This document shows positions 7,762-36,820 of a DNA stretch of 36,820 bases, one piece after another. The notes beneath the pieces were generated by a model, which was given only the letters and a program-made list of their open reading frames with translations, was not told the DNA's origin and did no database searches. Both the position numbers and the translations under genes were made by a program. Each line of letters begins with the position of its first letter. Position 1 is the first letter of the stretch. Source of the DNA: a virus; IMG/VR virus record IMGVR_UViG_3300032273_000082, positions 1-36,820 of that record; one strand, written 5' to 3'.

Positions 7762-7804
7762 TCGCGCAGTCTATCAACTCCCCCCACTATCCCGTGCTGA
7801 AAAA

Positions 7805-7831
7805 AGTTGTAAACAGGGGGGTATCACAACT
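7805..7831. promoter_or_regulatory. candidate late activator site between divergent late operons
   Basis: AGTTGT (7805-7810) and ACAACT (7826-7831) are inverted repeats with a 15-bp spacer, in the short region between terminase and scaffold. P2 late promoters carry a TGT/ACA dyad bound by Ogr at about -55. The half-sites fit, although the spacing is a few bases longer than in P2. I did not find clear -10 boxes. Confidence 0.35.
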
Positions 7832-7897
7832 CTCACCAGTACCCATTTTCCTGCCCGCGTTTTATTGTCACGCCATCACATAAGAGGAATACGTGTT

Positions 7898-8932: not shown

Positions 8933-8977
8933 CACAGGCCATCACTCACTATCATTTATCAATTTTAAGAGGTCACC

Positions 8978-10303: not shown

Positions 10304-10313
10304 GGATCAAACC

Positions 10314-11045
10314 ATGGTATCGCCACTACAGCGCCGACGTCAGCGCATTAAAGCGACGGTTGAGGCCACTCGCGCCATACAGGCTCACGCTGACGACACA
10401 GGCAGTGGCGACCTCATAAAGAGCGATTCACCACAACCGGGTGAATGGTCTGTGGTGCGTGCTGCGATAAAAAAAGACAAAGCAGCACTAAAAGGCATTA
10501 AACCCCTCAGCGACAAACTGGCCTACAAGGCGCGCATCTTGCCCCAGTACGACGACTATTTAGCGCGCAGCGATGCACCTGATGACATCACCATGCAGCT
10601 CATGGTGTGGCTGTTTGATTGCGGCAACTTACAGCGTGCTATGCCTATCGCGCTCAAGGGCGTGGCAAGTGGGGCCGCTATGCCGGAAGGATTTAAAGGG
10701 GATGTACCGACCTTCATTGCCGATGTGGTACTGGCCTGGTCAGAAGCACAGTTTCGGATAGGTCACAGCCCCGAGCCGTATTTTAGTGAGACGCTGGATA
10801 AGCTCATCAATGACTGGCACCTGTTTGAAGTGATAACCGCCAAGTATTACAAACTGGCGGGCTTAATGGCCCTGGGTAAATACAAGGCCAACATCAAACA
10901 CGTTAGCGAGCCCGACGCCCTGAAATCGGCGCGGAGCCTATTTGAAAAAGCCGAACAGCAGTACTTAAAAATCGGGGTCGGCACCCGTATCGAACAAATC
11001 ACATTACGTCTGGAAAAGATTGCACAATCGGTGCCGGACAACTAA
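10314..11045 (+). CDS. M: terminase small subunit (P2 gpM type)
   Basis: A 243-residue DNA-binding subunit of the packaging enzyme, which recognises the packaging site and loads the large subunit. P2 gpM is 247 residues. Typical stretches are YDDYLARSDAPDDITMQLMVWLFD-like helices around residues 75-105 and RIGHSPEPYF around 145. The ATG at 10314 has AAGGA seven bases upstream; seven codons of open frame before it lack a site. The gene follows the capsid gene by ten bases and is followed by a hairpin. Confidence 0.85.
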   Translation: MVSPLQRRRQRIKATVEATRAIQAHADDTGSGDLIKSDSPQPGEWSVVRAAIKKDKAALKGIKPLSDKLAYKARILPQYDDYLARSDAPDDITMQLMVWLFDCGNLQRAMPIALKGVASGAAMPEGFKGDVPTFIADVVLAWSEAQFRIGHSPEPYFSETLDKLINDWHLFEVITAKYYKLAGLMALGKYKANIKHVSEPDALKSARSLFEKAEQQYLKIGVGTRIEQITLRLEKIAQSVPDN

Positions 11046-11091
11046 GTAAAACGACTCTAGCAGCACCGTGGCCAGGTATAAAACGGCTATC

Positions 11092-11118
11092 GCCAAGGGG
11101 CATACTTGGCTGTTTTTT
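11092..11118 (+). terminator. candidate intrinsic terminator inside the late cluster
   Basis: GCCAAG (11092-11097) and CTTGGC (11105-11110) form a 6-bp stem with a 7-base loop, followed by TGTTTTTTAT. It lies in the 108-base gap between the small terminase and head completion genes. It would lower expression of the tail genes relative to capsid genes unless read through. Confidence 0.5.
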
Positions 11119-11153
11119 ATCACTCATGGCCACACTCATTTAAAAGGCACGAT

Positions 11154-11621
11154 ATGTACCAGTACCGGATAACACCAGAAACCAGCACGCACACCGATAC
11201 CATCACTAACGATGGGGGATTCTGGCCCGATATTGTGATGGCTAATTTTGTCAAAGAAGCCCGTATCCCGCCGCAATATGATGACGGGCAACAATATAGC
11301 GCCCTCATCAGAGCCATGGCCACCGCCAATATCGAACTCGCGAGCTGGACCGCCCGTCAGATTGAGCAAGGTAAAACCAGCTCCGACAAGGCAGGTCAAA
11401 TTATCAATGGTGAGGGCGTAGCCACCGCTTTGTACAAAGATGCCGTCTATAACCGCGCGAAAGCCAATTTGCTGACGCACTTTGCCACCCTGAACCGCAA
11501 GGACGAGGCAGAAGCGCTCGCCAAAGAAAGCCAAGAGACCTATGACCGGTTGATCACTGAATACCAAAAATCCATTCGAACCATTCAGGACACTATTACC
11601 GTGTCAGTGAGGCTATTGTGA
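11154..11621 (+). CDS. L: head completion/stabilisation protein (P2 gpL type)
   Basis: A 155-residue head completion protein that closes the filled head and prepares the neck for tail joining. The GGFWPDIVMANFVKEARIPPQYDDGQ-type start and the following helix ALIRAMATANIELASW are characteristic of gpL. I use the ATG at 11154, which has AAAAGG nine bases upstream, not the open frame from 11106, which runs through the terminator. Its stop overlaps the next start (GTGATG). Confidence 0.82.
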   Translation: MYQYRITPETSTHTDTITNDGGFWPDIVMANFVKEARIPPQYDDGQQYSALIRAMATANIELASWTARQIEQGKTSSDKAGQIINGEGVATALYKDAVYNRAKANLLTHFATLNRKDEAEALAKESQETYDRLITEYQKSIRTIQDTITVSVRLL

Positions 11622-12127
11622 TGGGAAGTCAAGTTTATGATTCTTACCTGCAAGCGCTGGGCGATCACATTGTGATCTGGCTGGAGCGCAAAGTGGGTGC
11701 CTCGGTAAAAGAGCAGTTTAGTGCCTATATCGAGGACGGGGAAATTGTACCGTCATTTAAAAATATGGGTGATGGTGTTATTGCGTGCTACTTCAAGTAC
11801 AAGGCCTCCTTCAGCATCGAGGGGATTCAATACGGGCTGATCAACCAGAACGCCCTGATAGCCCGCATTATCGCCTGGCTTAGCGAGCACGACACCACTC
11901 GAGCCCGATTCAAACTCGGCAACCCCGTCATAGAGATAGATGCGTATGACAGCAGTGCCATGGCTGACATTGATATCGAGGTGCATTTTGTGGATGTGAT
12001 CAGCATGCGGGAAGTGACCTCGGGCCTGGGGGATGTGGAGTACAACGGCAAGCAATGGGACATCGAGCCGTATGTCATTCATACCGCCGAGGAAGGCGAG
12101 GTAAAACCGAATGACATCCACGCTTAG
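11618..12127 (+). CDS. tail completion protein (P2 gpR-like position)
   Basis: A 169-residue protein (GTG at 11618, or ATG at 11621) between the head completion gene and the gpS-like gene, the place of P2 gpR. It begins with helices and then alternates strands (ARFKLGNPVIEIDAYDSSAMADIDIEVHF), as tail terminator proteins do. Sequence likeness to gpR itself is weak by eye, so the call is mainly from order, size and fold-like pattern. It overlaps both neighbours by a few bases, which suggests coupled translation. Confidence 0.65.
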   Translation: MMGSQVYDSYLQALGDHIVIWLERKVGASVKEQFSAYIEDGEIVPSFKNMGDGVIACYFKYKASFSIEGIQYGLINQNALIARIIAWLSEHDTTRARFKLGNPVIEIDAYDSSAMADIDIEVHFVDVISMREVTSGLGDVEYNGKQWDIEPYVIHTAEEGEVKPNDIHA

Positions 12128-12776
12128 CCTGACGCTACCCAAAGCTGACATAACCCGCGCGTTTAACACGTTAAAAATGTGCCGGTTAACGAACAAGCGG
12201 CGCAAGCAGATACTAAAACGAGTGGGCCGTGCGGTACACAAAAAAGCCCAGCTCAATATTCGACACCAAAAGACCGTCAATGGCCAACCGTTCGCCAAAA
12301 GGCAAAGCAAGAAAAAGCGTAAAAAAATGCTCATGAAGTTGGGCCGAACGCTAAGCGAAACATCATCGGTTAACCACGTCGATGTTGGGTATAAAAATGC
12401 ACTCGTGGGTCAGACCGCCTATCGTCAGCAACACGGCACACCGGAGCGATTCACCGCAAGACGCTTTAAAAAGTCGCGACGAAAAACCGATCCGCCCCCT
12501 GGCACAAAAGCCAGTCGTCAGCAAGCGAGAGCATTAAGGAAGGTCGGTTACACCGTCCCTAAAAAGCGCGGCAAGGGCGAGAAAACGCCCAGTATAGGGT
12601 GGATAACCAGCCACATAGACGGGGCCCAGGCAGGCGTGATGATCCGGTATTTACGCAATAAGCAAACAAAATCGAGCTGGGCAATACAAGGCCCTCCAAG
12701 ACCGTACTTAGGTTTGAGTGAGGCAGAAGGCCAGCAACTCTTAGCGGATGAAATCTTAAAAGTCATGAATAGGTAG
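12111..12776 (+). CDS. S: virion morphogenesis/tail completion protein (P2 gpS type)
   Basis: A 221-residue, very basic protein (KRRKQILKRVGRAVHKKAQ near residue 30) of the phage virion morphogenesis family, to which P2 gpS belongs. Such proteins finish the tail end that joins the head. The RQQHGTPERFTARRFKKS and the C-terminal GPPRPYLGLSEAE stretches are typical; R-P-(Y/F)-L-G-L is the family hallmark. It overlaps the previous gene by 17 bases and lies four bases before the sheath gene. It is longer than P2 gpS (150) by a basic middle insert. Confidence 0.8.
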   Translation: MTSTLSLTLPKADITRAFNTLKMCRLTNKRRKQILKRVGRAVHKKAQLNIRHQKTVNGQPFAKRQSKKKRKKMLMKLGRTLSETSSVNHVDVGYKNALVGQTAYRQQHGTPERFTARRFKKSRRKTDPPPGTKASRQQARALRKVGYTVPKKRGKGEKTPSIGWITSHIDGAQAGVMIRYLRNKQTKSSWAIQGPPRPYLGLSEAEGQQLLADEILKVMNR

Positions 12777-12780
12777 CACT

Positions 12781-13911
12781 ATGTTAGGAACCGTTACAGT
12801 CAACAATTTAAACGCCTACCAAAACAGCGTCGGCGAGGTTGAACGCCGATTCTTGTTTGTTGGGAAAATTGAAAAAGCGGACTTGCAAAAAAAAGTCACA
12901 CCTTTAAATGCCAATACCGATTTGGTGGCACTGTTTGGGGAAGATGATACACCCAGCACCACCAACCTGATTGTCACTGCAGCGCAGCTGAACGCAGGAG
13001 CCAACTGGGAAGCGGCCTTTGTGGGATTGCCAGCAAAAGATTTCACGTGGCAAGCAGCACTGGATTTAGCCAACACCACCAACAACTATGAAGCGATAGT
13101 GGTGTGCGATCCCATCACCACAAAAAAAGATCTTGAAGATGCATCCGCTAAAATGGCCAGCGTGCAAGCTAAAGACGCCCGCTACATGTTCGCCATGCTG
13201 TGTGCGCCAGCCATTGACTCAGAAGCCAGTACAGGGCAATCGTGGGCAGATTACATCGCGGCGAGCGGCGCACTGGTCAGCGATTTTGTCAGCGAACGCG
13301 TAATGTGTATTCCGCTCCTCTTTGGAAATGACGTGGGTGTTTTGGCGGGCCGCCTGTGTAAGCGCAGTGTCACCGTCGCGGATTCACCGATGCGCACCAA
13401 GACCGGTGTGCTGTTAGGGCTGGGAGAAGCCTCGCTGGACATGGACGGAGAGGCCATGCCGGAGACCATTTTTTCTTCCCTTGATGCATTGAAACTCAGC
13501 GTGCCACAAACCTACCCTGGGGAGGCGGGTTTCTACTGGGCCGACGGTAACGTGTTCGACCTCGATACAGGTGATTACAAGGTTATCGAAAACTTACGGG
13601 TCGTGCTCAAGGCGTGCCGCCGCGTGTACAAGGTGGCTATTCCCACCATTGCTGATCGAGCATTGAACAGCTCACCGTCAAGCATAGCTCGAAACAAACA
13701 ATTGTACATGAAGCCACTGCGCGAGATGGCCACACCGGTGCGCATCAATGCCGTGCCGTTCCCTGGGGAAATTTATCCACCGGGTGATAGCGCCATTGAG
13801 ATCAACTGGCAGTCATGGACGAAAACCATTATCACCATCACCCTTCACCCTTACAACAGCCAAAAATCCATTGTGATTGGTGTCGGGCTGGATGTAAGTC
13901 AACACAAATAA
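12781..13911 (+). CDS. putative tail sheath protein (DUF2586 type)
   Basis: A 376-residue protein recognised as the DUF2586 type found in K139-like P2 relatives in place of P2 gpFI. It begins MLGTVTVNNLNAYQ and has a Rossmann-like middle (YEAIVVCDPITTKKDLEDAS at about 108-127). The C-terminal part (YMKPLREMA, then IEINWQSWTKTIITITLHPYNSQKSI) resembles the end of contractile tail sheaths, which donate strands to neighbours. Position before a 150-residue tube-like gene supports sheath. This is inference from family and order, not proven structure. Confidence 0.75.
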   Translation: MLGTVTVNNLNAYQNSVGEVERRFLFVGKIEKADLQKKVTPLNANTDLVALFGEDDTPSTTNLIVTAAQLNAGANWEAAFVGLPAKDFTWQAALDLANTTNNYEAIVVCDPITTKKDLEDASAKMASVQAKDARYMFAMLCAPAIDSEASTGQSWADYIAASGALVSDFVSERVMCIPLLFGNDVGVLAGRLCKRSVTVADSPMRTKTGVLLGLGEASLDMDGEAMPETIFSSLDALKLSVPQTYPGEAGFYWADGNVFDLDTGDYKVIENLRVVLKACRRVYKVAIPTIADRALNSSPSSIARNKQLYMKPLREMATPVRINAVPFPGEIYPPGDSAIEINWQSWTKTIITITLHPYNSQKSIVIGVGLDVSQHK

Positions 13912-26141: not shown

Positions 26142-27275
26142 TTATATTTTCATAAGTGGAGTATTCAGCACCGAAGATAAGACGGGAGCTGGTAACGAAA
26201 TACCCGGCAATAGATATTGAACAAAATTATGAGTAAGACCTAATGAATATAGAGTTTTCTGCCAACAATTTCTATCTATATTATTTAATAACTCACCAAG
26301 TAAATGCGGCCTTTCCATAGGAATTTGGTCATCTAAAAGTTCAACTTTACTATATCCTTTTTTATTGAGATATATATAACCCGAACGCATTTGATCGTCA
26401 TTAATCAAACCTAGAGATTTAGCTCGATATAATAACGCCTTAAAACTCACCTTAAAATAAAGCTTTAACTTATTTAAACTCTGCCAATTTAAGCTTTTAG
26501 TACCTTTGATCAGTGGATATTTTCGAACAGCATTAATAAACGTAGTCCTTGGCATCAAAAAAGAGCTAGCAAAAAAGTTTGCTTGCTTTTCAGTTTCTTT
26601 ACAACCCGTAATAATACCGTCATGCATGACTAAGTGACCTAACTCATGAGCAAGATCAAACCGAAAACGACACGGACTATTTTTCGCACTATTTCGAATG
26701 ATAATTGGTCGTTTCCTTGACATTGAAAACGCATCTACCTTTTCATCTACACCATCAATCGATGCAACAATAACCCCTGAGTTTTCGATAACTATTGTAA
26801 TATCATCAATAGGACCATTATTAAGGTTCCAGTAATCACGCATTTTCATTGCGATTTTTTCTATATCATTAATATCGCTTATATTAAAATCTGACACATC
26901 AGGTAAATTGAAGTCAGGAAGTTCAAAATAACCTTCAATTTCCTTAATTAATAAATCTAATATCTCTGCTCGAGCCATAACTGTATTAGTTAATGTTTTT
27001 GTTCTAGAACGAACAGACCGAAAATGACACTGTTCTTCAATAACAGGAACATTTCTAACTGTATAAAAATACGAGCGATTAACACTAAGTAAATTACACA
27101 ATAATGGAAGCTGTTCATCTGTTGGCTCTTGCCCTGCTTCCATTTTATGAATATTCTGCCTTGTTACACCAATGGCTTGTCCTAGTTCTTCAAGAGAAAA
27201 GCCTTTTGCAATTCTTATTAATCTTAATTTATCCCCTCTGTAAGGGTCTATATTAAATAACTCACTCATCACCAT
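26142..27275 (-). CDS. XRE-family HTH fused to an ImmA/IrrE-type metalloprotease
   Basis: A 377-residue protein. Residues about 14-72 form an XRE helix-turn-helix (LRLIRIAKGFSLEELGQAIG, then RQNIHKMEAGQ). HELGH at 210-214 is the zinc-protease motif of the ImmA/IrrE family, with E229 in the TEKQAN stretch as the expected third ligand. In ICEBs1 ImmA cleaves the repressor ImmR, and IrrE/PprI cleaves DdrO after DNA damage. Fused HTH-protease forms are found in many stress and toxin-antitoxin-like units. It overlaps the 215-residue partner by 14 bases and shares its promoter. ATG at 27275 is used; 27269 (ATG) is also possible. The last 120 residues are not recognised. Confidence 0.8.
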   Translation of the reverse strand: MVMSELFNIDPYRGDKLRLIRIAKGFSLEELGQAIGVTRQNIHKMEAGQEPTDEQLPLLCNLLSVNRSYFYTVRNVPVIEEQCHFRSVRSRTKTLTNTVMARAEILDLLIKEIEGYFELPDFNLPDVSDFNISDINDIEKIAMKMRDYWNLNNGPIDDITIVIENSGVIVASIDGVDEKVDAFSMSRKRPIIIRNSAKNSPCRFRFDLAHELGHLVMHDGIITGCKETEKQANFFASSFLMPRTTFINAVRKYPLIKGTKSLNWQSLNKLKLYFKVSFKALLYRAKSLGLINDDQMRSGYIYLNKKGYSKVELLDDQIPMERPHLLGELLNNIDRNCWQKTLYSLGLTHNFVQYLLPGISLPAPVLSSVLNTPLMKI

Positions 27276-27909
27276 TAGTCTTCTTTTCTATCACTTTAGA
27301 TACTACCGACTGCCTTGCAACTGTGCTTGCTTCCGGCAAATCATCGTTTACTACATGTAACTCACCTCGAATTACAGTTTGAGATTGCCACATCGCTTTT
27401 ATTTCATTTGAATATTGGTCATAACCTACAAGTACAACTCTATAGTCATCTTCTAAATCTTCGAGATCACTCCCCATAGTCGCGGGTTCTTGTATGAACA
27501 ATCGCCATACCAAAGACGCGGCATCATCATCTTCAGACTGCATAAAAAACATCGTCATTTGACACTGTTCTGATGTATTTTGAAAAAATATTTTACTTTT
27601 CTTTGGAGCCTTAGGATCATCCCTGAAAACGCGAATAGGAAGACCAAAAACCACAGGAACATAATCCATTGCTCGGCGCGTCAACTTAATCCACGACTTA
27701 GATTTATCTTTGTCCAACGAAATAAATAGTTGACGAACTTGTCCAAAAATTGATGTCTCAACAGTGTAATTGTCATGATACGCACCTACATGTGTAGTAT
27801 TAACTGTATTATCAACAATCTCTAGTATTTTCTGTGATAGTTCATCCAAACACGATTCATCTAACTCAGGGCAGTATTCAAATGGCGTTTTATATTCTTT
27901 AGCGATCAT
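27262..27909 (-). CDS. unknown partner protein of the HTH-ImmA gene
   Basis: A 215-residue acidic protein, first gene of a two-gene operon with the HTH-ImmA gene. Residues 1-130 alternate helices and strands (CLDELSQKILEIVDNTVN; VRQLFISLDKDKSKSWIKLTRR; RVFRDDPKAPKKSKIFF). It has no membrane helix, signal peptide or catalytic motif that I recognise. It could be the substrate, sensor or toxin of the pair. The promoter at 27945-27973 lies directly upstream, so expression does not depend on phage late control. AT-rich composition points to separate acquisition. Confidence 0.65.
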   Translation of the reverse strand: MIAKEYKTPFEYCPELDESCLDELSQKILEIVDNTVNTTHVGAYHDNYTVETSIFGQVRQLFISLDKDKSKSWIKLTRRAMDYVPVVFGLPIRVFRDDPKAPKKSKIFFQNTSEQCQMTMFFMQSEDDDAASLVWRLFIQEPATMGSDLEDLEDDYRVVLVGYDQYSNEIKAMWQSQTVIRGELHVVNDDLPEASTVARQSVVSKVIEKKTNGDE

Positions 27910-27990: not shown

Positions 27991-28107
27991 ATGAAAAATG
28001 TCAACCAAGCATCAAACCAACCAATTAGACTGCCAACATCTCAACTTACAAGCCACCCAGACCGCAAGCTAACACTCCTACTTTCTCACCTTAAGCAAAT
28101 GATTTAG
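27991..28107 (+). CDS. possible 38-residue small protein
   Basis: ATG at 27991 follows AAAGGTG by seven bases, and the frame stays open to the TAG at 28105. It would read divergently from the ImmA operon and overlap its upstream repeat. The peptide is basic with a helical end (RKLTLLLSHLKQMI). Nothing else supports it, so it may be chance. Confidence 0.25.
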   Translation: MKNVNQASNQPIRLPTSQLTSHPDRKLTLLLSHLKQMI

Positions 28108-28237
28108 ATAGCCACACGACAACTCACCTGCAGATGATTTACACATAATCCGCCCTCCCCTAAAATTATCTCTGAAAAAAAATCTTTAAAAAAAACAACT
28201 CATCCGCACACACCTCGGGGCTTTTCGTGTTAGGTTT

Positions 28238-28531
28238 TTGCCATTAAGGAAGTTTGCCAACGCCCTTGCAGGCCCCGCCGTATATAGGGTTATGCGATTA
28301 TGCGCCAAATTCTTAATGGCACAGATGGCAATTAAGGAGCAATTTGTGCAACGTTTTTTCACAGAAAAAATTACAACTCATTGATATATTGACAATTAAA
28401 AATTTTCAGGATTTTTTAAGGCTTAAAAAGCTGTTATTCCAACGACCACAAAAAAGCCTGAAAAATCTTTATATATCAAATGAGTAGAATCAAATTCATC
28501 CAATTCCTTAATGGCACTCGTGCCATTAAGG
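28238..28531. repeat. cluster of palindromes in non-coding DNA
   Basis: This lies in a stretch of about 890 bases (27910-28800) without a clear gene. CCTTAATGGCAC and GTGCCATTAAGG form a perfect 12-bp palindrome with a 2-base spacer at 28506-28531. Related half-sites occur at about 28239 and, as an imperfect inverted pair, at about 28311-28336. Between them, 28376-28485 forms a nested inverted repeat: ACTCATTGATATAT with its near-perfect reverse at 28471-28485, ATTTTCAGG (28402-28410) with CCTGAAAAAT (28457-28466), and an inner arm TTTTTAAG/CTTAAAAA at about 28412-28429. The function is not known. Confidence 0.6.
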
Positions 28532-28800
28532 GGCAACAAACAAAAAATCACGTTCATCAAAAAAATGGCATTTTGCTCATTTGAAAAATTAAAAAATCAT
28601 GTGGTTTTAATTTTTTCCGCTCTAATCTGGCACGCACAACTAAACCGAACATCTAGTAGTTTAAGTATGAACTTCCGTTAACATGAAAATGGACATAAAT
28701 CAGTTTCGGAAAATTATACATTAGCGCTCTCTCAATAATTAAAAGTATGGCAAAGCCACTCAATAGAGTGCTTGTTTTGGGAGGATAATAGCTTTGTGCT

Positions 28801-29056
28801 TTACTATAAACCTTTGGCGGAAGAACATTTTCTCTCGTGTAGGTAATCCTTACCGTAACGTTTACCAGCTACGCCACACATACGCTTCGTGGATGTTGAA
28901 CTACGCGAATGTGGACATCGCCTACCTAGCCCAACAGATGGGCCACAATAACTTTTGATGATCGCCAATGTCTACGGCAAATGGATGAAAAACACGAATA
29001 TGTCAGAGAATGAAAAAGCTTGGGAGGCTTTGAAAGGCATTAGTTCTAGTGGGTAA
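28801..29056 (+). pseudogene. remnant of a tyrosine integrase (C-terminal part)
   Basis: The plus strand encodes INLWRKNIFSRVGNPYRNVYQLRHTYASWML followed by YLAQQMGHNNF, the R-H and G-H motifs of tyrosine recombinases, up to a TGA at 28956. The frame continues one base over as MIANVYGKWM and ends at the TAA at 29054, with the tyrosine-containing motif in VYGKWM. So there is a frameshift between the last two catalytic motifs, and there is no clear start or N-terminal domain. This is a different integrase from the complete one at 35852. It marks an older insertion or the edge of a cargo island. Confidence 0.75.
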
Positions 29057-29061
29057 AGAAA

Positions 29062-29082
29062 AGCCTCGCATGTGCGAGGCTT
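29062..29082 (-). terminator. terminator of the restriction-modification operon
   Basis: AGCCTCGCA and TGCGAGGCT form a perfect 9-bp stem with a 2-base loop (29062-29081). On the minus strand it is followed by TTTTCTTT. It lies 30 bases after the restriction endonuclease stop. Confidence 0.7.
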
Positions 29083-29110
29083 GAATATTCTGTTTTACTA
29101 TCTCTAACCT

Positions 29111-29845
29111 TTAGCCGCCAAAGTCTGCGAATAGGTTACAGTGGTTGGTCAGTTGTTGAATAAATGCGTCAACGCTAGTTGAACCGCTTAAATTACGATA
29201 ATCACCTGCACCACTATTTTCACTTGAAGCGGCCATAACCGAAGCCGCATCATAAATACGTCTAGCCATAAGCTTACGACACAAAATTTCATAGCGTTCT
29301 AGATAAGAAACACCAGCAGCTCGCGGATATTTGCCATTTACTGGTTGATAGTTTGCATCCCTGCTATTTTCATCAGCTAAGAACCCCTGCATCACAGGGA
29401 AGTAATCCATACTGATTCGAGCAGAACGCCTCGTAGTTTCTGAATCTTCAACTAAAATAAGGTACCCCATAAATGGGCGTACGCTTGGCAAGAATGCATT
29501 TTCTTCTATTGCGGTGCTAAGGTCCAATCCACTACCCAGAACTTCTTCTGTACGGTTATTAAAGTTATTACCGATTGATCCTACTTGCGATTTCAACTCA
29601 ACAGCTGCGACTAAGTAACCGTTGGAAGTTACAACAATATCCCATGACTTATGAGGCCTGAAATACCCAGGTAATTGAGAGGTATTTTTCCCAGTGTGGA
29701 TTTGGAAATCTTCAAGATTCGAAGACTCAACAACTCGACTGATTAGAGCAATAAATCCATCTAGCGTTTTTCCACCTAATACACCAGTGCCACCATCTCT
29801 TACTGTCCAGAAGTTTCTAACAGCACTTTTTACTAATTCGTTCAT
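29111..29845 (-). CDS. type II restriction endonuclease, PaeR7I/XhoI type
   Basis: A 244-residue enzyme like PaeR7I (246 residues), which cuts C^TCGAG. Typical stretches are NFWTVRDGGTGVLGGKTLDGF near the start and AAVELKSQVGSIGNNFNNRTEE. The likely PD-(D/E)xK centre is D69 (SWDI), E83 and K85 (ELK). The start ATG lies three bases after the methyltransferase stop, so both are made from one mRNA with the methyltransferase first, a sensible order on entry to a new cell. The CTCGAG specificity is inferred from the family and has not been tested here. Confidence 0.85.
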   Translation of the reverse strand: MNELVKSAVRNFWTVRDGGTGVLGGKTLDGFIALISRVVESSNLEDFQIHTGKNTSQLPGYFRPHKSWDIVVTSNGYLVAAVELKSQVGSIGNNFNNRTEEVLGSGLDLSTAIEENAFLPSVRPFMGYLILVEDSETTRRSARISMDYFPVMQGFLADENSRDANYQPVNGKYPRAAGVSYLERYEILCRKLMARRIYDAASVMAASSENSGAGDYRNLSGSTSVDAFIQQLTNHCNLFADFGG

Positions 29846-29848
29846 TTA

Positions 29849-31510
29849 TTAACCTAGCAACTGTCTTTCTTGTTTATTTAAATTATATAGTTTGGATGTT
29901 AAGAGAATTGATTTCTCAATATCATTATTTATAGCTACCTCTGAGAGAGCAGTAGCTAAATCAGAATCAACGTCTTCCCACCGTGGTAAGCAAATTCGTC
30001 TTAAATGTTGAGCTTGAAACCTCAAATTGCCCCCAGCTACTTTCGTTGAGTAGTTCTCAACGAAAAGCTGTCCGATGCCCGATATTAGAACACCTTGTAA
30101 AGCTCTCAAATCCCAATTAGATGAGCAGATATAGTAAATGGAGTTATTTGGGTGATACTGACCAGAATCATATACAGTAGTCAACTTAGACTTGATATCA
30201 GGTATCAATAGTTTCTCTTGGGCCGCACGTTCTGGGTAAACCCGATCAATTGTCTTAAACCAGTGGTGTGGCGATTTCTTAGCAACATGCCGTTTTTGTA
30301 AAACTTCTTGATGCTGAGTTAAGTATTCTTCGAGCATTGGAAAGTCTGTCAGTTCGACTACACCATTTTCGTCATAAGTGTTCACGATGAACTTACCCGA
30401 AGGCACCAATGTGCCTGTACGAATCTCAGTTGCAGTAACCAAAGGTACTTTACGGCTAGGCTCTAGTACCGCATCATCACTAACTATATATACTTTATTA
30501 TTTCCTGTTGCAGCCCCGATGTAGACCTTGCAACCGACATCTTCCATTTTAGGGAAGTCTTTCTCTAACCTTTTAATTAGATTTAGCTCGTCTGCACACC
30601 CAAACAACCAAGGCTTCTCATCATCGATAATGTCTTTTCTCTCAGTTAGTTTATTTGAGCACTTTTCTTGCCCTGTGAGCATTAAATAAACTGAATCTGA
30701 AAGCTCGAAATCTATCTCTGGGTTATGCAGTATTTTTGTTGAGCTATGCTTCTGCCTTGATATCTGCGTAATCGCTGGGTACGTTAACACATCGGATTGA
30801 AATGCTGATTGACCATAAAGGTCTACGTAAAGGTCAAGTTGATAGCTAGCTGATATAAACCCCCGTAATGACGAACCGTAACTGTTCTTAGTCCATCTAT
30901 CCGTACAAATAAAAGACAAGACCCCTTTTGCCTCGAGTAGCTCTAAACATTTCTGATAAAACGCAATGTATAGATCTGCACGTTCTTTCATTGTGTGGTA
31001 GCGAGAGCGATACGCTGAAAGTAAAGATGGTGGGATGTTCTCGATCCTAACGTATGGCGGGTTACCAATTGCATGACTGAAGTACGTAGAGAAGTCAGTT
31101 AACAAGAAGTCGCCGTGATAGAACCAGCTTTCAACAATTGAGTCAGCCTCTTCAGCCGTTAGGGCTTGCATTAACACTTCACTGGTTTTCTGCTTAGCAA
31201 TTGCAATATTTTCAGCTGAAATATCGAAGGCCTGAACAAGGCCTTTAATAAAGTCTACAGAATAGTGTTCTTGGTTATCTGTTACATTTGCAACCAAAAG
31301 CTTAGCAATTGCGATAACAAATTCACCTTGCCCACATGATGGCTCTAGTATACGAGCGCTCTTCGAGTTAATGGCATTGGTAATACCAGAGGTTTTTAGC
31401 ATAAAGTTAACAATTTTGGGGTTTGTAAAAACCTCGCCTTTTTCTTGATCTGAGGCCCCCCATGCTAAGGAATCTAAATGGTTTTCAATCTCTGGAATAG
31501 CTAGCTGCAT
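29849..31510 (-). CDS. N6-adenine DNA methyltransferase, PaeR7I type
   Basis: A 553-residue gamma-class enzyme. The AdoMet-binding motif ILEPSCGQGEF is at residues 54-64 and the catalytic NPPY at 150-153, in the order I then IV. The C-terminal half (about 290-553) is the target-recognition part, with TATEIRTGTLVP and a late LRFQAQHLRRICLP stretch as in related enzymes. M.PaeR7I (532 residues) methylates adenine in CTCGAG; the same site is expected here. It has no obvious ribosome binding site before the ATG at 31510, and a CTCGAG site lies within it at 30932. Confidence 0.85.
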   Translation of the reverse strand: MQLAIPEIENHLDSLAWGASDQEKGEVFTNPKIVNFMLKTSGITNAINSKSARILEPSCGQGEFVIAIAKLLVANVTDNQEHYSVDFIKGLVQAFDISAENIAIAKQKTSEVLMQALTAEEADSIVESWFYHGDFLLTDFSTYFSHAIGNPPYVRIENIPPSLLSAYRSRYHTMKERADLYIAFYQKCLELLEAKGVLSFICTDRWTKNSYGSSLRGFISASYQLDLYVDLYGQSAFQSDVLTYPAITQISRQKHSSTKILHNPEIDFELSDSVYLMLTGQEKCSNKLTERKDIIDDEKPWLFGCADELNLIKRLEKDFPKMEDVGCKVYIGAATGNNKVYIVSDDAVLEPSRKVPLVTATEIRTGTLVPSGKFIVNTYDENGVVELTDFPMLEEYLTQHQEVLQKRHVAKKSPHHWFKTIDRVYPERAAQEKLLIPDIKSKLTTVYDSGQYHPNNSIYYICSSNWDLRALQGVLISGIGQLFVENYSTKVAGGNLRFQAQHLRRICLPRWEDVDSDLATALSEVAINNDIEKSILLTSKLYNLNKQERQLLG

Positions 31511-31692
31511 GTTTTGATCGATACTATGAAAAATTGAGTTAAGCGTACCAGAAATTCAGGTTCAGACATACAGTAAAGCTTAATTTCTAGATATACTGAA
31601 TTTGGATAACTTTAGGTAGGGCAAATGCACATTAACAGGATATGAATGAGTATTTGATCTACCAAATAATGGGCATAAATCTCTTATAAAAT

Positions 31693-32004
31693 TTAAGCCT
31701 CAACCTGCTGACTAAAGACAAGGGGAGTAACTAACTTAGCCTCATCAGCATAGCGATTCCTTGTATCCCATAGATCCACAGCATGTTGAATGTTCAACCA
31801 GAACTCTGGAGTATTACCCAATGCAGCCGCTAATTTAATCGCAAGTGGAGCCGTCAGAACCCCACCATTAATCAAGTGGCTTACGGTATTTCTATGAACA
31901 CCCATTGCTTCAGCTAAAGTCTTAGACGTAATTCCCACAGGGTCTAAAAATTCAAGCTTTAACATTTCACCAACGGTTACTGGACGACGTTTTGTCTTAC
32001 GCAT
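31693..32004 (-). CDS. higA: HigA-type antitoxin
   Basis: A 103-residue HTH protein of the HigA/VapI type. The stretch TSKTLAEAMGVHRNTVSHLING (about 22-43) is the XRE helix-turn-helix, and AAALGNTPEFWLNIQHAVDLWD (about 64-85) is the HigA hallmark. It neutralises the toxin encoded upstream and represses the operon. AAGGAG lies eight bases before the ATG. It is the second gene of the pair (toxin first), ten bases after the toxin stop. Confidence 0.88.
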   Translation of the reverse strand: MRKTKRRPVTVGEMLKLEFLDPVGITSKTLAEAMGVHRNTVSHLINGGVLTAPLAIKLAAALGNTPEFWLNIQHAVDLWDTRNRYADEAKLVTPLVFSQQVEA

Positions 32005-32014
32005 TATACGCTCC

Positions 32015-32302
32015 TTAATACTTATGAGGGTCTAGGTATGTATTCATAGCTACACCATCAACCCACTGAAATATCAAACGATATTGTTTATTAACTCTAA
32101 TTGAACACCAATCGTTCAGATTTCCTGATAAATGTTCAAATCGATTACCAGGTGGCACACGTAAGTCCGACTCATCTTTCGCGGCATCCAATAGTTCCAA
32201 CTTTCGGTACAGTGCACTATCAATAGTACTTGGTATCAACCGATGGCGAACATCATCCTCATAAAAGGATTCCAACCACTTATCTTTAAATTCTACTGAC
32301 AT
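32015..32302 (-). CDS. higB: HigB-type mRNA interferase toxin
   Basis: A 95-residue RelE-fold toxin. FKDKWLESFYEDD near the start and RVPPGNRFEHLSGNLNDWCSIRVNKQYRLIFQWVDG are typical of HigB, which cuts mRNA on the ribosome. I chose the ATG at 32302 because AAGGTGG lies just upstream and the usual HigB starts here; the open frame goes back to 32338 without support. It stabilises the cargo region or aborts infection by other phages. Confidence 0.87.
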   Translation of the reverse strand: MSVEFKDKWLESFYEDDVRHRLIPSTIDSALYRKLELLDAAKDESDLRVPPGNRFEHLSGNLNDWCSIRVNKQYRLIFQWVDGVAMNTYLDPHKY

Positions 32303-32352
32303 ACCCACCTTAACATTGCACATACGTTGCATGTTCATTGTGCATACTAACG

Positions 32353-32381
32353 ATAATAGCGCACAGTGTGACTGTGCACAA
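32353..32381 (-). promoter_or_regulatory. higBA promoter with operator in the spacer
   Basis: TATTAT (minus, 32358-32353) and TTGTGC (32381-32376) are separated by 17 bases. The inverted repeat GCACAGT/ACTGTGC (32361-32377, 3-base spacer) fills that spacer. More TGTGCA-type half-sites occur at 32317-32322 and 32339-32344. This is the expected layout for HigA autorepression. Confidence 0.6.
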
Positions 32382-32508
32382 GATGTATGAAATGTTTAAA
32401 CATGTTCTTTGATATAATTCTTACAGCGTACCCTTCACTCTTCCCGAACAGAAAAGTCAATACCACCTCAAATCTCGCTTTATCTTTATTTACTGCCCTA
32501 GCCATCGC

Positions 32509-32623
32509 GTAGCGATAAAGCTACCCCATAACAATCATCGTGTACCTTACTTTCCTGTCGCATGACAAAAAACACTAACAGCGCGTTCTCATAACCTCCT
32601 AGCCGCTCATATGGTAGCGATAA
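32509..32623. repeat. iteron-like direct repeats
   Basis: GTAGCGATAA occurs at 32509-32518 and 32614-32623. Each copy is preceded, six to nine bases before, by CCTAGCC and followed by an ACC within a few bases. The copies are 105 bases apart. They may bind the initiator, but only two are present. Confidence 0.4.
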
Positions 32624-32744
32624 CCACCACACCTATAGATTACCTCGACGGGGCCCGTTTAATTGCCCTGTGATGCTAACAAGGCAGATATACTTAAATC
32701 AATTCAATGGGAACTACCTTGCTCTATTCTTGAGGCCTATCTAA

Positions 32745-32767
32745 ATAAAGTTATTTAATAACTTTAT
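32745..32767. repeat. 23-bp perfect palindrome
   Basis: ATAAAGTTATT and AATAACTTTAT flank a single central T. It is AT-rich with no T run, so it is more likely a protein-binding site or a strand-opening element than a terminator. It lies between the iteron-like repeats and the DnaA box. Confidence 0.6.
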
Positions 32768-32870
32768 GGATTTGAGGCACGAAAAAACACCTAAAAGATC
32801 TAAGACTAAAAACTACCCCCGCTTCTTACTTCCAATCCTTACTTCCATTTCAAACCCATAGCACACAGGG

Positions 32871-32942
32871 TTATCCACAACGCCCACCTTTGCGCCCAAA
32901 AAGGATCGCAAAGGATCATATTTTCGAACCCTCTAGAGAGGG
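32871..32942. other. candidate oriR with DnaA box
   Basis: TTATCCACA at 32871-32879 is a perfect DnaA box. It is followed by AAGGATC at 32901-32907 and 32911-32917, ten bases apart and carrying Dam GATC sites, then an AT-rich stretch and the inverted repeat CCCTCT-AG-AGAGGG at 32929-32942. In IncFII-type plasmids oriR with a DnaA box lies just downstream of repA; here it lies 180 bases after the RepA-like stop on the same side. Confidence 0.5.
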
Positions 32943-33056
32943 GCGTATTGAAATGTCTATTAATCGCCAGACAACAATCATTAAAACCTATCAATGTTTT
33001 ATACAGACGTACGAAAGCCTCCGCGGGAGCGGATTATTCAAAAATTAGAGGGTTAT

Positions 33057-33695
33057 TTAAGCGCTGCTGAAAATGCCAGCTTGGTATTGCGCTGGGACGT
33101 CATCATGTGCCACAGGCTCGCTGTGGGCTTGCTTGGCGTATTTTCGGGCCTTATTAAATATCTTGTACCCATACCAAATACAAGAACGCCCTTGGTCAAT
33201 ACGAGAAGCAACACACTTTGCGCGTGACTCTCGAATATCTTTCTTATGCTCAAGGTTAAGATCACTAAAAAATAGCTTGGTGAACTCTTTTAGGGAAGCG
33301 ATAGAGCGGATTAATGGAGACTCATCCGTTTCCTCAATGGTTAGTGCAGATTTTGAGACGATATAGCCTGCATTCACAAGCTGTTTGATAGCGCGATACC
33401 AACGACCTTCGGTGATAGACTCACCAAACATCTCCTTATAGCGCTTCATTAAATTGATATGTGTAATGCCATGCATCGCATCAACATTACATATACCAAC
33501 TTGGTTATTTTCCGCATCCATTGCAGCCAACATAACGCGGATCACACGCACCAGCGTAATCCGCTGGCGTTTCTGTAGCGGCTTAATATTGCTATTGACC
33601 ATCCACAGGCGCTTAAACATATGTGGCGCATTGACAAACTTGTCGAACGCAGCCGAATAACGTTTAGCGTAATGGGTTAACTTAGCCATTTTCAC
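33057..33695 (-). CDS. RepA-like replication initiator
   Basis: A 212-residue basic protein that looks like the IncFII RepA family. The winged-helix part has RQRITLVRVIRVMLAAMDAENNQVGI (about 43-68), then ITEGRWYRAIKQLVNAGYI (about 93-111), matching RepA's order of strand, helix and glycine turn. The next segment, FFSDLNLEHKKDIRESRAKCVASRIDQG, parallels the RepA stretch after the wing. RepA plasmids' proteins are about 285 residues, so this is short. GTG at 33695 overlaps the previous stop (TAGTG); ATG at 33689 is an alternative. No P2 gpA-like nickase is in the window, so this is probably the phage replication protein. The family call is by eye. Confidence 0.55.
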   Translation of the reverse strand: MKMAKLTHYAKRYSAAFDKFVNAPHMFKRLWMVNSNIKPLQKRQRITLVRVIRVMLAAMDAENNQVGICNVDAMHGITHINLMKRYKEMFGESITEGRWYRAIKQLVNAGYIVSKSALTIEETDESPLIRSIASLKEFTKLFFSDLNLEHKKDIRESRAKCVASRIDQGRSCIWYGYKIFNKARKYAKQAHSEPVAHDDVPAQYQAGIFSSA

Positions 33696-33919
33696 TAACT
33701 GGGATCACATGAAGTAACGATTAACGATCCCGAAAAGAAACAGATAGATTCCTGCCGCTCGATTGCACTGTGTATTTCAGCGAGTTCTGTTAATGGTAAG
33801 TGTGAGTACGTTTTAGACTTTATGTAGTTAGCGACAGTCTCTTTCGGGAGCGCGACAATTTCACGGCCGTTATGAAAGAAACGGGCACCGTCGGTTATTT
33901 GGATATTGATATTCATCAT
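33695..33919 (-). CDS. small early protein of unknown function
   Basis: A 74-residue protein starting MNIN after an ATGATG; GGAAGTGAG lies just upstream of the ATG at 33919, which overlaps the previous stop (ATGA). The stretch ITDGARFFHNGREIVALPKETVANYIKS looks like a short beta-hairpin followed by a helix. It has no known domain that I can name. It is in the early operon between an unknown protein and the RepA-like gene. Confidence 0.6.
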   Translation of the reverse strand: MMNINIQITDGARFFHNGREIVALPKETVANYIKSKTYSHLPLTELAEIHSAIERQESICFFSGSLIVTSCDPS

Positions 33920-34260
33920 CTCACTTCCCTTTCTGAACATCTCCTTAGAAAGTCACGATAGCGGGCTCTATATTCGGCAAACCGAGCATCGCCGCATTGT
34001 TTTTGAATGGCGATGAGATGAAAAATATAGTCCCCAGTAAATCGCTCCATCGTCCTTTCGAAATACGCAAAGTCCGCCGCCCGAAGATAAGAATGATCCA
34101 GAAAATCTGGATTAACAAAAGCAGTTAAACCAACCACCCAATCATAAGCGGGCTGACCTTCTGGCTTCTGCCTCATTAACTGCCATGCAAGCTTCCAGCC
34201 CTGCTTAGGTGTTAGAGGGCCTTCTGGGGTGGGCATTTTAATATCAATCTCAATTTTCAT
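33916..34260 (-). CDS. early protein of unknown function
   Basis: A 114-residue protein. It has a proline-rich start (IKMPTPEGPLTPKQGW) followed by helical stretches rich in aromatic residues and arginine (YRARYRDFLRRCSEREVR). The ATG at 34260 shares a base with the previous stop (TAATG), so it is translationally coupled. It lies in the early operon with the replication gene. The family is not recognised. Confidence 0.6.
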   Translation of the reverse strand: MKIEIDIKMPTPEGPLTPKQGWKLAWQLMRQKPEGQPAYDWVVGLTAFVNPDFLDHSYLRAADFAYFERTMERFTGDYIFHLIAIQKQCGDARFAEYRARYRDFLRRCSEREVR

Positions 34261-34526
34261 TAGAACGGTAACCCCTCGAAATACACCAACTTTCTAAAAT
34301 CACTTTTTACAACTAAGCAATCGCACTGTTCACGCGAATCAAGTGCTTTCTTTGCATAACAAAAGATGCGGCTAATAAGCTCTGAATTACCCTCGCTCTC
34401 TGCAAAGTGCTGCTCGACACGCTTGATATCGGCCAGCAATGGGTAGCCATACTTATCTGACTCAAACCGCCTTGCTATTCGATACATTTCTTTGAACAAT
34501 TTCTTAGTTGTAAATTGTTTTTCCAC
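34260..34526 (-). CDS. early protein of unknown function
   Basis: An 88-residue basic, helical protein. The GTG at 34526 has GGAG six bases upstream; a TTG at 34532 would add two residues but lies too close to that site. The run KKLFKEMYRIARRFESDKYGYPLLADIKRVEQHFAESE suggests a helical bundle. There are two cysteines close together (EQCDC). It has no recognised domain. Confidence 0.58.
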   Translation of the reverse strand: MEKQFTTKKLFKEMYRIARRFESDKYGYPLLADIKRVEQHFAESEGNSELISRIFCYAKKALDSREQCDCLVVKSDFRKLVYFEGLPF

Positions 34527-34528
34527 AT

Positions 34529-34651
34529 TCAACTCCGGTAAAAAATAGCCTCATCCTGAGGCCCAAAGACTGTGTCCTCACAGCCCTCCGTAACGGGGAG
34601 AATTCGACTCATTAACGTAGGTAGTGCACGTTTGCCGTATTCGGTGTTCAT
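34529..34651 (-). CDS. possible 40-residue early peptide
   Basis: ATG at 34651 with AAGG six bases upstream, ending at the TGA at 34529, which overlaps the start of the next gene, as in the rest of this tightly packed operon. The sequence runs MNTEYGKRALPTLMSRILPV, then EGCEDTVFG and DEAIFYRS. An overlapping 32-codon frame (starting MEYSF) uses the same bases, so the choice of frame is not certain. A 24-bp repeat lies inside it. Confidence 0.45.
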   Translation of the reverse strand: MNTEYGKRALPTLMSRILPVTEGCEDTVFGPQDEAIFYRS

Positions 34652-34750
34652 TTTTAGCCTTAAAGCTGTATTCCATTTCAATATAAGGAGTGCCACTTCC
34701 CTGTGGCCATGCAGACTATTGTTATCCCCGTAACGTGGGGAACCGACTCG
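34586..34750. repeat. pair of hairpin-forming repeats
   Basis: CTCC-GTAACGG-GGAG (34586-34600) and CCCC-GTAACGT-GGGG (34726-34740) are short hairpins with a common GTAACG core and similar flank (AATTCGACTC and AACCGACTCG), 140 bases apart. They sit in the 34527-34878 gap of the early operon, which otherwise has only the possible 40-residue peptide. Confidence 0.5.
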
Positions 34751-34878
34751 GTGCGCGGCTAGTACGCGTCTGTTTGATTAGGATTTCTACCAACCAACCC
34801 AACAAAAGAGGTAAAAATACCGCCCTACGTGGCAATTGAATAACAAGTACACCCGCTATTCGATTGCCTAGTCAGGGA

Positions 34879-35136
34879 TTAAACTGGCGTAGGTGAATTG
34901 CCATATAGCTCAAGTGATTGTGCTTCCATTTGAAATTTACGCGCTAACTCCCCATCCCCCATGTCATGCGCAATGTCAGCCAATGCATTCAACTGATTAG
35001 CAACACGCTCATTAAGACGCGAAATACAAAAAGCAGCTGTGTTTTCTGGCGTCTGATTTTCAGCATGACAAGCCACTGTGAATTGGTAATGGTTCACCAC
35101 GCCGTTATAGATCTCGCTAATTGATGAAATGATCAT
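34879..35136 (-). CDS. early protein of unknown function
   Basis: An 85-residue protein. ATG at 35136 overlaps the Cox-like stop (TGATG). One helix-rich stretch, ENTAAFCISRLNERVANQLNALADIAHDMGDGELARKFQMEAQSLE, covers most of it, so it is probably a small helical bundle. It is directly after the Cox-like gene, where P2 keeps small early genes such as orf78 and B; it does not look like gpB to me. Confidence 0.6.
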   Translation of the reverse strand: MIISSISEIYNGVVNHYQFTVACHAENQTPENTAAFCISRLNERVANQLNALADIAHDMGDGELARKFQMEAQSLELYGNSPTPV

Positions 35137-35384
35137 CACTTAAACCCCTCGAAACGATCTTTCCAGCTAAGCCACTCTTCATCCGCATTTTCAACTTGCT
35201 CAACCGCATGTGCATGTAATGCATGCATATTTATAAACCAAGTTCGCTGTCCGTTACGGCGAGGCTTTGTCGGTAATTCACCGCGCTGGCACATCTTTTT
35301 TACTGCCCCTTCGGTCATGCCAAAAAGATCTGCTACACCCCTTGCGGTCATGTATGACGGCGGGACAGTTAGTTGACTTTCCAT
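35136..35384 (-). CDS. cox: Cox-like excisionase/repressor
   Basis: An 82-residue DNA-binding protein with a MerR/Cox-type helix-turn-helix (YMTARGVADLFGMTEGAVKKMCQRGELPTKPRRNGQRTWF, about 11-50). P2 Cox (91 residues) turns off the repressor promoter and directs excision of the prophage with integrase. It faces the C-like repressor across the 35385-35485 control region, as in P2. I use the ATG at 35384, with AGAGGA upstream; the longer open frame to 35492 would run through the operator region. Confidence 0.75.
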   Translation of the reverse strand: MESQLTVPPSYMTARGVADLFGMTEGAVKKMCQRGELPTKPRRNGQRTWFINMHALHAHAVEQVENADEEWLSWKDRFEGFK

Positions 35385-35407
35385 CTTGTGGTATCCTCTA
35401 AGGTTGT

Positions 35408-35424
35408 GTGTCTGGACGTGTCTG
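35408..35424. promoter_or_regulatory. direct repeats in the immunity control region
   Basis: GTGTCTG occurs at 35408-35414 and 35418-35424, exactly ten bases apart (one helical turn), between the divergent cox-like and C-like genes. P2 C and Cox both bind directly repeated sites in this region. Which of them binds here is not clear. Confidence 0.45.
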
Positions 35425-35461
35425 AATATGTACAGGTCACACTTAGCATCTGATTTAACCA

Positions 35462-35467
35462 TATAAT
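35462..35467 (+). promoter_or_regulatory. -10 box of the repressor promoter
   Basis: A perfect TATAAT 19 bases before the repressor ATG at 35486. There is no good -35 box at the right distance, so the promoter may depend on or be tuned by Cox or C binding nearby. Confidence 0.45.
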
Positions 35468-35485
35468 ATGTGGGATACCCATAGA

Positions 35486-35785
35486 ATGTCAATAAACACA
35501 GCTGAAAAGTTAATAGTAATGCGTGAAAGTGAGCGCATTACACGCAAAGTGATGAGCGAACTCACTGGAATTCCTTATGGATCATTAACAGACTACGAAC
35601 TAGGGAGAGGGAATATGGGGCTAAAAGCCGCACAAAAAATCTTAGGCCACAACAGATTCAAAAAGTACACTATGTGGTTCTTGTTTGATGAAACAGACCC
35701 TGCCGCTGGACAAATTAGCCCGGCTCTCGCACACATTGGGCGAGACGGAACAATATCACCCCCATCAGACGAGAAAACTGGCTAA
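35486..35785 (+). CDS. C: P2 C-like repressor
   Basis: A 99-residue repressor, the same length as P2 C, with very similar features: NTAEKLIVMRESERITRKVMSELTGIPYGSLTDYELGR (HTH at about 18-41), TMWFLFDE, then QISPALAHIG and a C-terminal end close to P2 C (SPPSDEKTG). It keeps the lysogenic state by blocking the early leftward promoter. The ATG at 35486 gives the P2-like start; the open frame from 35468 adds six residues and overlaps the promoter. Unlike CI of lambda it lacks a self-cleavage domain, so it would not respond to RecA directly. Confidence 0.88.
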   Translation: MSINTAEKLIVMRESERITRKVMSELTGIPYGSLTDYELGRGNMGLKAAQKILGHNRFKKYTMWFLFDETDPAAGQISPALAHIGRDGTISPPSDEKTG

Positions 35786-35851
35786 CCATATGGCTAAAAT
35801 CATGTTTATTTAATCGAGCAACTAATGATGACTTATTCGAGGAGGTTGAAT

Positions 35852-36820
35852 ATGTCAATTAAGAAGCTCGATAACGGTCAATACCAGGTGGATGTTAGGC
35901 CTGCTGGTATGAAAGGAAAACGATATCGCAAGAAGTTTGATCGTAAAACCGAAGCGACAACTTATGAGAAATTTGTTATTACAAATTTCCACGATAAAGA
36001 TTGGTGCGAGAAACCAAGCGATAAAAGATCACTATCCGATCTTATAGAGCTCTGGTTCCGGCTTTATGGTCAAAGTCTGAAAACGGGAATAAGAGAACGA
36101 AAAAGACTTTTGCGAATAAATAAGCTTATGGGAAACCCTCGCGCTTATCAGATAGCAAAACCGTTCTTTATTCGCTTTAGAGCATCCCGTATAGAAAAGG
36201 GCATACAAGCATCAACATTTAATCGAGATCATAACAGTCTCAGCAGTGTTTTTACTGCGCTAATTGATGCGGGAGAATACCTTCACGAGCACCCTTTAGT
36301 AGGCATCGCTAAACTTAGAGAGAAACCATCAGAGATGAGCTTTTTATCTGACAGCGAGATACAGCAACTACTTGATGCTTTACAGGGAGACTCGGCAATA
36401 ATTGCAAAATTATGTTTATGTACAGGAGCGCGATGGAGCGAGGCAAATGACTTGCGAGGTGAACAGGTAGCTAATGGACGGGTGACATTTTTAGATACAA
36501 AGAATAATAAAAATAGAACCATTCCAATTGGGGATAAGTTAAATATACAACTTAAAGAAAAAGGATCTGGACGTCTCTTTAAAAGCTCTTATGCTGACTT
36601 TTATAGTGCACTAAAAAATCTTGACTTTAACCTTCCCAAAGGACAGGCAAGCCATGTTTTAAGGCATACTTTTGCAAGTCATTTTATGATGAACGGCGGA
36701 AATATTTTAACACTACAGAAAATATTAGGGCACAGCGATATTAAACATACATTGCTATATGCCCATTTTTCGCCGGATTATTTGGTTGATGCCATCAAGT
36801 ATAATCCATTAGGTGAATGA
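35852..36820 (+). CDS. int: P2-type tyrosine integrase
   Basis: A 322-residue tyrosine recombinase close to P2 Int. The start IKKLDNGQYQVDVRPAGMKGKR is the arm-site binding domain; residues about 58-150 are the core-binding domain. Catalytic residues are R194 (GARWSE), H268 and R271 (SHVLRHTF), H294 (LGHS) and Y303 (LLYAHF). GAGGAGG lies eight bases before the ATG at 35852. It inserts phage DNA between attP and attB; in P2 attP lies just after int, so attR is expected just past the window edge. The stop codon is the last three bases of the window, so the gene is complete. Confidence 0.92.
   Translation: MSIKKLDNGQYQVDVRPAGMKGKRYRKKFDRKTEATTYEKFVITNFHDKDWCEKPSDKRSLSDLIELWFRLYGQSLKTGIRERKRLLRINKLMGNPRAYQIAKPFFIRFRASRIEKGIQASTFNRDHNSLSSVFTALIDAGEYLHEHPLVGIAKLREKPSEMSFLSDSEIQQLLDALQGDSAIIAKLCLCTGARWSEANDLRGEQVANGRVTFLDTKNNKNRTIPIGDKLNIQLKEKGSGRLFKSSYADFYSALKNLDFNLPKGQASHVLRHTFASHFMMNGGNILTLQKILGHSDIKHTLLYAHFSPDYLVDAIKYNPLGE

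Follow-up and report, generated by a model that had tools for sequence, protein, structure and literature searches.

A plasmid-type initiator and origin cassette as the probable replacement of gpA in a Vibrionaceae P2-type prophage

Replication systems of P2-type phages and marine plasmids

Replication by gpA is usually taken as a defining trait of P2-type phages, and the P2 rolling-circle module consists of gpA with an internal nick site. P2-type packaging takes single genome circles (PMC8537503). Plasmid R1 replicates unidirectionally by the theta mode, and the DnaA box beside which its RepA binds lies downstream of repA (PMC5883639). The pVT1_88 family (pVT1_88, VVP68, PBPRC0066, and p23023) has been described as homologous to the RepA of pRA2, which was shown to be essential for pRA2 replication, and has been called a novel replicon type (PMC3033894). 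The study of pVT1 reported neither iterons nor DnaA sites, and an attempt to clone the pVT1 homologue together with the DNA around it was unsuccessful in both E. coli and V. cholerae (PMC3033894).

Prophage organization and the Rep protein

The DNA analyzed here (the window) is a virus contig of 36,820 bases. Its left end (1–2217) is a host glycoside hydrolase 31 (GH31) gene, the 738-aa ORF of which is 82% identical to a gene in a Vibrionaceae genome, and DNA similarity to that genome ends near position 2365. Judged from this junction, the window is an integrated prophage joined to Vibrionaceae host DNA at its left end. The last bases of the record are the integrase stop codon, and a few prophage bases past the integrase may be missing. 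By model matches, the packaging, capsid, and sheath genes (4937–13911) are P2-type: portal and terminase (assigned by PHROGs) lie on the minus strand, and the GPO scaffold (PF05929, E = 1e-36), P2-family capsid (PF05125, E = 1e-86), and sheath on the plus strand. At the other end are a tyrosine integrase (35825–36820, plus strand; phrog_1, E = 1e-70; Pfam Int_N and Phage_integrase), a prophage repressor (35468–35785, plus strand; phrog_147, E = 7.8e-32), a Cox-like excisionase/repressor (35136–35492, minus strand; phrog_575, E = 1.5e-9), and an early operon (33695–35139, minus strand), which leads into rep and has four small ORFs that the sister phages retain in part.

The interior carries further genes. 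An XhoI-like restriction endonuclease (PF04555, E = 6.5e-58) adjoins an Eco57I/TaqI-type adenine methylase at 29111–31510, so that the prophage cargo includes what looks like a complete restriction-modification cassette, and a HigBA-type toxin–antitoxin pair (31693–32338) adjoins the origin region described below. The segment 28840–29060 (plus strand) resembles a tyrosine recombinase C-terminus (...YQLRHTYASWML...) and is apparently a broken gene. A protein with HTH and IrrE-like peptidase parts (26142–27275; phrog_2439, E = 1e-104) lies beside a partner ORF (27262–27909; phrog_5786), possibly a second regulatory or defence pair.

As originally predicted, a gpA-like nickase was not found. Phage_GPA (PF05840) had no match in the window at E up to 10 and was not detected in three sister phages (L003, L004, and L005); the positive controls phiO18P (E = 3e-89) and C5a (E = 9e-64) have capsids that place them among the nearest of the named P2-type phages. 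A gpA hidden at the left end of the window was rejected, since the 738-aa ORF there is the host GH31 enzyme. Among the window proteins scanned, none was recognized as the product of another replication gene. Those scanned from the early region and the left end with Pfam and PHROGs included no ParA/ParB-type protein, and an Rfam scan of 28000–36820 gave no CopA-type antisense RNA.

The candidate replication initiator, Rep (33057–33695, minus strand), has 212 codons from a GTG. Translation more probably starts at the ATG at 33689, because Rep of L003 and L004 begins MIKLTH, whereas the window reads VKMAKLTH. Rep matches no Pfam, NCBIfam, or PHROG model, the IncFII_repA/incFII_RepA models of Pfam and NCBIfam included. 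Homologues are encoded by 186 Vibrio, Photobacterium, Shewanella, and Aliivibrio plasmids (tblastn, E up to 1e-24), including p23023, pPBPR1, and pVIBHAR, and are unannotated or named "hypothetical protein" among the matches listed; the sequences of virulence plasmids among the matches (such as pVA1 and pPHDD1) were left out of the comparison. On plasmids, these genes stand alone ahead of long non-coding regions. The pPBPR1 protein is 60% identical to a protein near the end of pVT1. Family members are present in 37 of 296 Vibrionaceae species genomes; a search of genome contigs gave no match with the single Rep protein as query and matched Photobacterium plasmid contigs with the Rep alignment as query. 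Weak chromosomal matches (L053–L060) were set aside, as they are without P2 genes of the window's type. By homology, Rep thus belongs to the pVT1_88 plasmid replication-protein family, and the match is to a replication family rather than to a non-replication one. Some plasmids of this family have the gene in duplicate, an unusual arrangement if it encodes the only initiator.

The original prediction had the early operon end in a RepA-like protein and proposed a profile search against RepA families. In hhalign, a profile of 32 Rep members aligned collinearly with 11 IncFII/I/L/M RepA proteins over 137 columns (E = 1.1e-7, probability 94%), the E value having been 4.7e-5 with fewer sequences. 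On this alignment, Rep is remotely related to IncFII RepA, and the predicted protein is a homologue of a plasmid replication family with distant IncFII kinship. The predicted combination of a P2-type virion with a plasmid-type replicon likewise stands, given the capsid, scaffold, and terminase models and the family of Rep. Structure prediction, also proposed at that time, was less telling: the AlphaFold2 model (mean pLDDT 73, pTM 0.74) combines a winged helix, roughly residues 42–140, with a disordered or low-confidence C-terminus, but the fold search gave generic winged helices and no strong match to any initiator. The RepA_N initiator domains (4pql, 5kbj, and 4pt7) were rejected, with fold Z scores of 5.7–5.9 tied with many others, and a PDB sequence search with Rep returned generic winged helices alone.

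The conserved region downstream of rep

About 570 non-coding bases after rep are strongly conserved, in alignments with the window, in L003, L004, and L005 (Rep 60–65% identical) and in the G086 element (L091–L093; contig C3, ~1.814 Mb), which has a Rep 88% identical to that of the window, an integrase, a repressor, and the origin. The G086 element carries transposases in place of P2 virion genes and is apparently a decayed or rearranged relative. The putative origin region (ori; 32497–33056, minus strand) is conserved in the sister phages up to the boundary at 32497, past which the cargo differs: HigBA and the XhoI restriction system in the window, a cytosine methylase in L003.

Directly after rep lies a hairpin-TCTGT element (TCCGC..GCGGAGG..CGTACGTCTGT; 33004–33035, minus strand), which recurs nearly identically after the IncFII repA of Enterobacter pENT01 (blastn, 88% over 42 nt). 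At 32871–32879, 178 nt past the rep stop and close to the 180 bases predicted, is a perfect DnaA box, TTATCCACA; at least one exact box is expected in a shuffled 620-nt copy with P = 0.006. The box is kept in G086 and in L003–L005, and lies at +119 to +181 from the rep stop in most relatives. The GATC-bearing tandem repeats and inverted repeat that were also predicted are present in the window (32887–32917), as AAAGGATC at 32900 and 32910 and the 8-nt CCTTTGCG/CGCAAAGG at 32887–32914, but are absent from G086, despite the close similarity of its Rep, and from L003–L005. They are therefore probably not functional, and the tandem repeats were rejected as iterons because the nearest relatives are without them.

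Farther from rep, an AT-rich palindrome, ATAAAGTTATT-A-AATAACTTTAT (32745–32767), is kept in the sister phages with a shifted left arm. It is followed by a covarying stem-loop (CCCA-stem...stem-CGGGCCC; 32651–32711, minus strand), a candidate single-strand priming (G-site-like) signal. The arms pair at 7–8 of 8 bases in 16 of 17 distinct members (mean 4.6 for arms exchanged between members), and this covariation indicates that the stem itself is probably selected; by single-strand folding energy alone, the window's own strand favors a different fold. The TTTTTTGTCATGCGACAGGAAAG element (GTCATnCGAC; 32550–32575, minus strand) is common to plasmids of the window's Rep family. The position that the stem-loop and the GTCATnCGAC element occupy in the window is, in R1, that of the primase (G) site. 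The element of the block farthest from rep is a GTAGCTTTATCGCTACGCGATGGCT hairpin (32500–32524, minus strand), found partly in pVSAL54.

The spacing of the landmarks from the rep stop is near-constant across plasmids and phage-plasmids. In the window, the DnaA box, CCCAT, ACGGGCCC, and TTTTGTCATnCGAC lie at 178, 345, 399, and 487 nt, respectively; in plasmids and phage-plasmids, the DnaA box is at about +120 to +181, CCCAT at +311 to +413, ACGGGCCC at +367 to +469, and TTTTGTCATnCGAC, the GTCATnCGAC element, at +319 to +543. The GTCATnCGAC element was present in 22 and all four landmarks in 9 of the 34 members of the non-redundant set, and neither that element nor the four together occurred once in 6,800 shuffled sequences. 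Wherever all four were found, their order was identical (14 of 14 members). The order of Rep, DnaA box, and conserved elements is thus seen on plasmids also, and the IncFII-type layout, with a DnaA box at +178 and a conserved block downstream of rep, is present in the window.

In Aliivibrio plasmids, the GTCATnCGAC element follows a different Rep, an IncFII/L/M-like RepZ. Small Aliivibrio plasmids (L014, 1525–1601; L064; L065) carry a 77-base block 82% identical to the window origin, and the position of this block downstream of a Rep of an unrelated family indicates that the origin is partly shared across Rep families. A scan of IMG/VR with a 20-base GTCATnCGAC pattern recovered five phage contigs (L072–L076), whose IncFII/L/M-type RepA proteins are 65–74% identical to the Aliivibrio RepZ proteins. 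The integrase of L072 and L073 is 54% identical to that of the window. All four contigs searched (L072, L073, L075, and L076) have a P2-fold capsid with 30% identity to the window's, and none has gpA. Plasmid-type replicons therefore occur in two P2-capsid phage groups, which, by sequence comparison, have different Rep proteins and a common origin element.

Proposed replication mode and comparison with known systems

It is quite probable, from the gene content and homologies described above, that the P2 rolling-circle module (gpA) has been replaced in this prophage by a plasmid initiator/origin cassette. Most likely, the IncFII-like initiator and origin would be used instead of gpA for theta replication after induction. 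Rep would be produced from the end of the early operon and, by analogy with R1, would bind just downstream of its own gene beside the DnaA box; Rep and DnaA would then open the region near 32870, allowing helicase loading. The fork would run away from rep, past the stem-loop and the GTCATnCGAC element, which, 350–500 bases on, may serve as a primase or primosome strand-start site. During the lytic cycle, theta replication of the excised circle would yield closed monomers, the substrate of P2-type cos packaging, so replacement of gpA by a plasmid replicon fits the packaging of closed monomeric circles.

Other roles for the cassette have been weighed. The original prediction allowed for an episomal state, and the cassette might also maintain the prophage episomally at low copy, which would make it a true phage-plasmid with integration as the alternative. 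Phage-plasmids such as p-ED287, and probably K303 as well, replicate by means of this Rep and origin, and in the metagenome contig L003 the portal–methyltransferase side is joined directly to the integrase side, which means that a free, non-integrated form exists. That junction, however, is equally expected from virion or replicating DNA. The window itself is joined to the Vibrionaceae GH31 gene, host similarity ending near 2365, and has Int, Cox, and a repressor, whereas a ParA-type gene was not recognized among the proteins scanned; because the element is integrated and this gene was not found, an episomal prophage is unsupported, and we regard it as unlikely.

Plasmid genes do enter phages, and the degraded, transposase-bearing G086 element still has its closely similar Rep, as would be expected if rep were a relic or a hitchhiking plasmid fragment while an unrecognized phage protein or host functions replicate the phage. 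Yet Rep is intact, and four independent phage contigs (60–65%) retain it together with the entire origin block despite changing cargo; the proteins scanned included no alternative replication protein that could be recognized, which makes a relic improbable. The weak PadR-like and generic winged-helix matches of Rep could instead mark a transcription regulator of the early operon, the conserved downstream region being a regulatory or packaging site. This is very improbable, as the plasmid homologues stand alone before their non-coding regions with DnaA boxes at constant spacing, the Rep profile matches IncFII RepA (hhalign, as above), and a published tie links the family to an essential plasmid RepA (PMC3033894).

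On this comparative evidence, replacement of gpA by a plasmid replicon remains the preferred reading. Taking in the second P2-capsid group, we somewhat favor the view that Vibrionaceae P2-type phages swapped rolling-circle replication for a plasmid-derived IncFII-like theta replicon at least twice, with a common origin core (the covarying stem-loop and the GTCATnCGAC priming element) serving two Rep families. Phages appear to exchange whole replication systems with plasmids, and such exchange would link integrative phages directly with phage-plasmids and plasmids. In addition, the comparison reveals a conserved putative origin of a large, widespread, and little-studied marine plasmid family, in which an earlier study could not find one, and the origin so exposed can be tested directly by cloning.

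Among described systems, the RNA-based MRB replicon of Vibrio is different from that of the window. The VBR1 replicon, which has a two-gene initiator, vrp1A/vrp1B, and a four-repeat oriV, and whose Vrp1B has an AAA ATPase domain (PMC12753305), was rejected as a counterpart, since the window has a single winged-helix Rep without such a domain. The phiO18P, C5a, and K139 group resembles the window in virion genes (capsid identity 47–52%), integrase, Cox, and repressor, but phiO18P and C5a have a gpA nickase above the Phage_GPA cut-off, which the window is without. The Vibrionaceae phages L072–L076 share with the window the GTCATnCGAC element and a plasmid-type Rep; theirs, however, is of the Aliivibrio RepZ family, and their tail genes are Mu-like, unlike those of the window. 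The Vibrio phage-plasmids K303 and p-ED287 are tailed phages whose Rep family and origin architecture match those of the window, but they are siphovirus-type with ParA, and p-ED287 has a circular plasmid form, whereas the window has a P2-type virion and is integrated.

The IncFII, IncI, and IncL/M replicons of the R1 type have, like the window, a Rep gene followed by a hairpin, a DnaA box, and conserved downstream elements; the window differs in having no Pfam IncFII_repA or NCBIfam match and no CopA-type RNA by Rfam, and, among those examined, only Vibrionaceae versions of these replicons have the TTTTGTCATnCGAC element in common with it. In the pVT1_88/pRA2 RepA-type replicon (pVT1, pYJ016, pPBPR1, p23023, and Shewanella plasmids), the initiator is homologous to the window Rep, which is 29% identical to the pPBPR1 protein, and the origin elements of pPBPR1 recur in the window in the same order and spacing. 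The plasmid Rep proteins have 240–300 aa, whereas the window Rep has 212 aa, without the N-terminal extension, and the replicon sits here on an integrative P2-type phage rather than on a plasmid.
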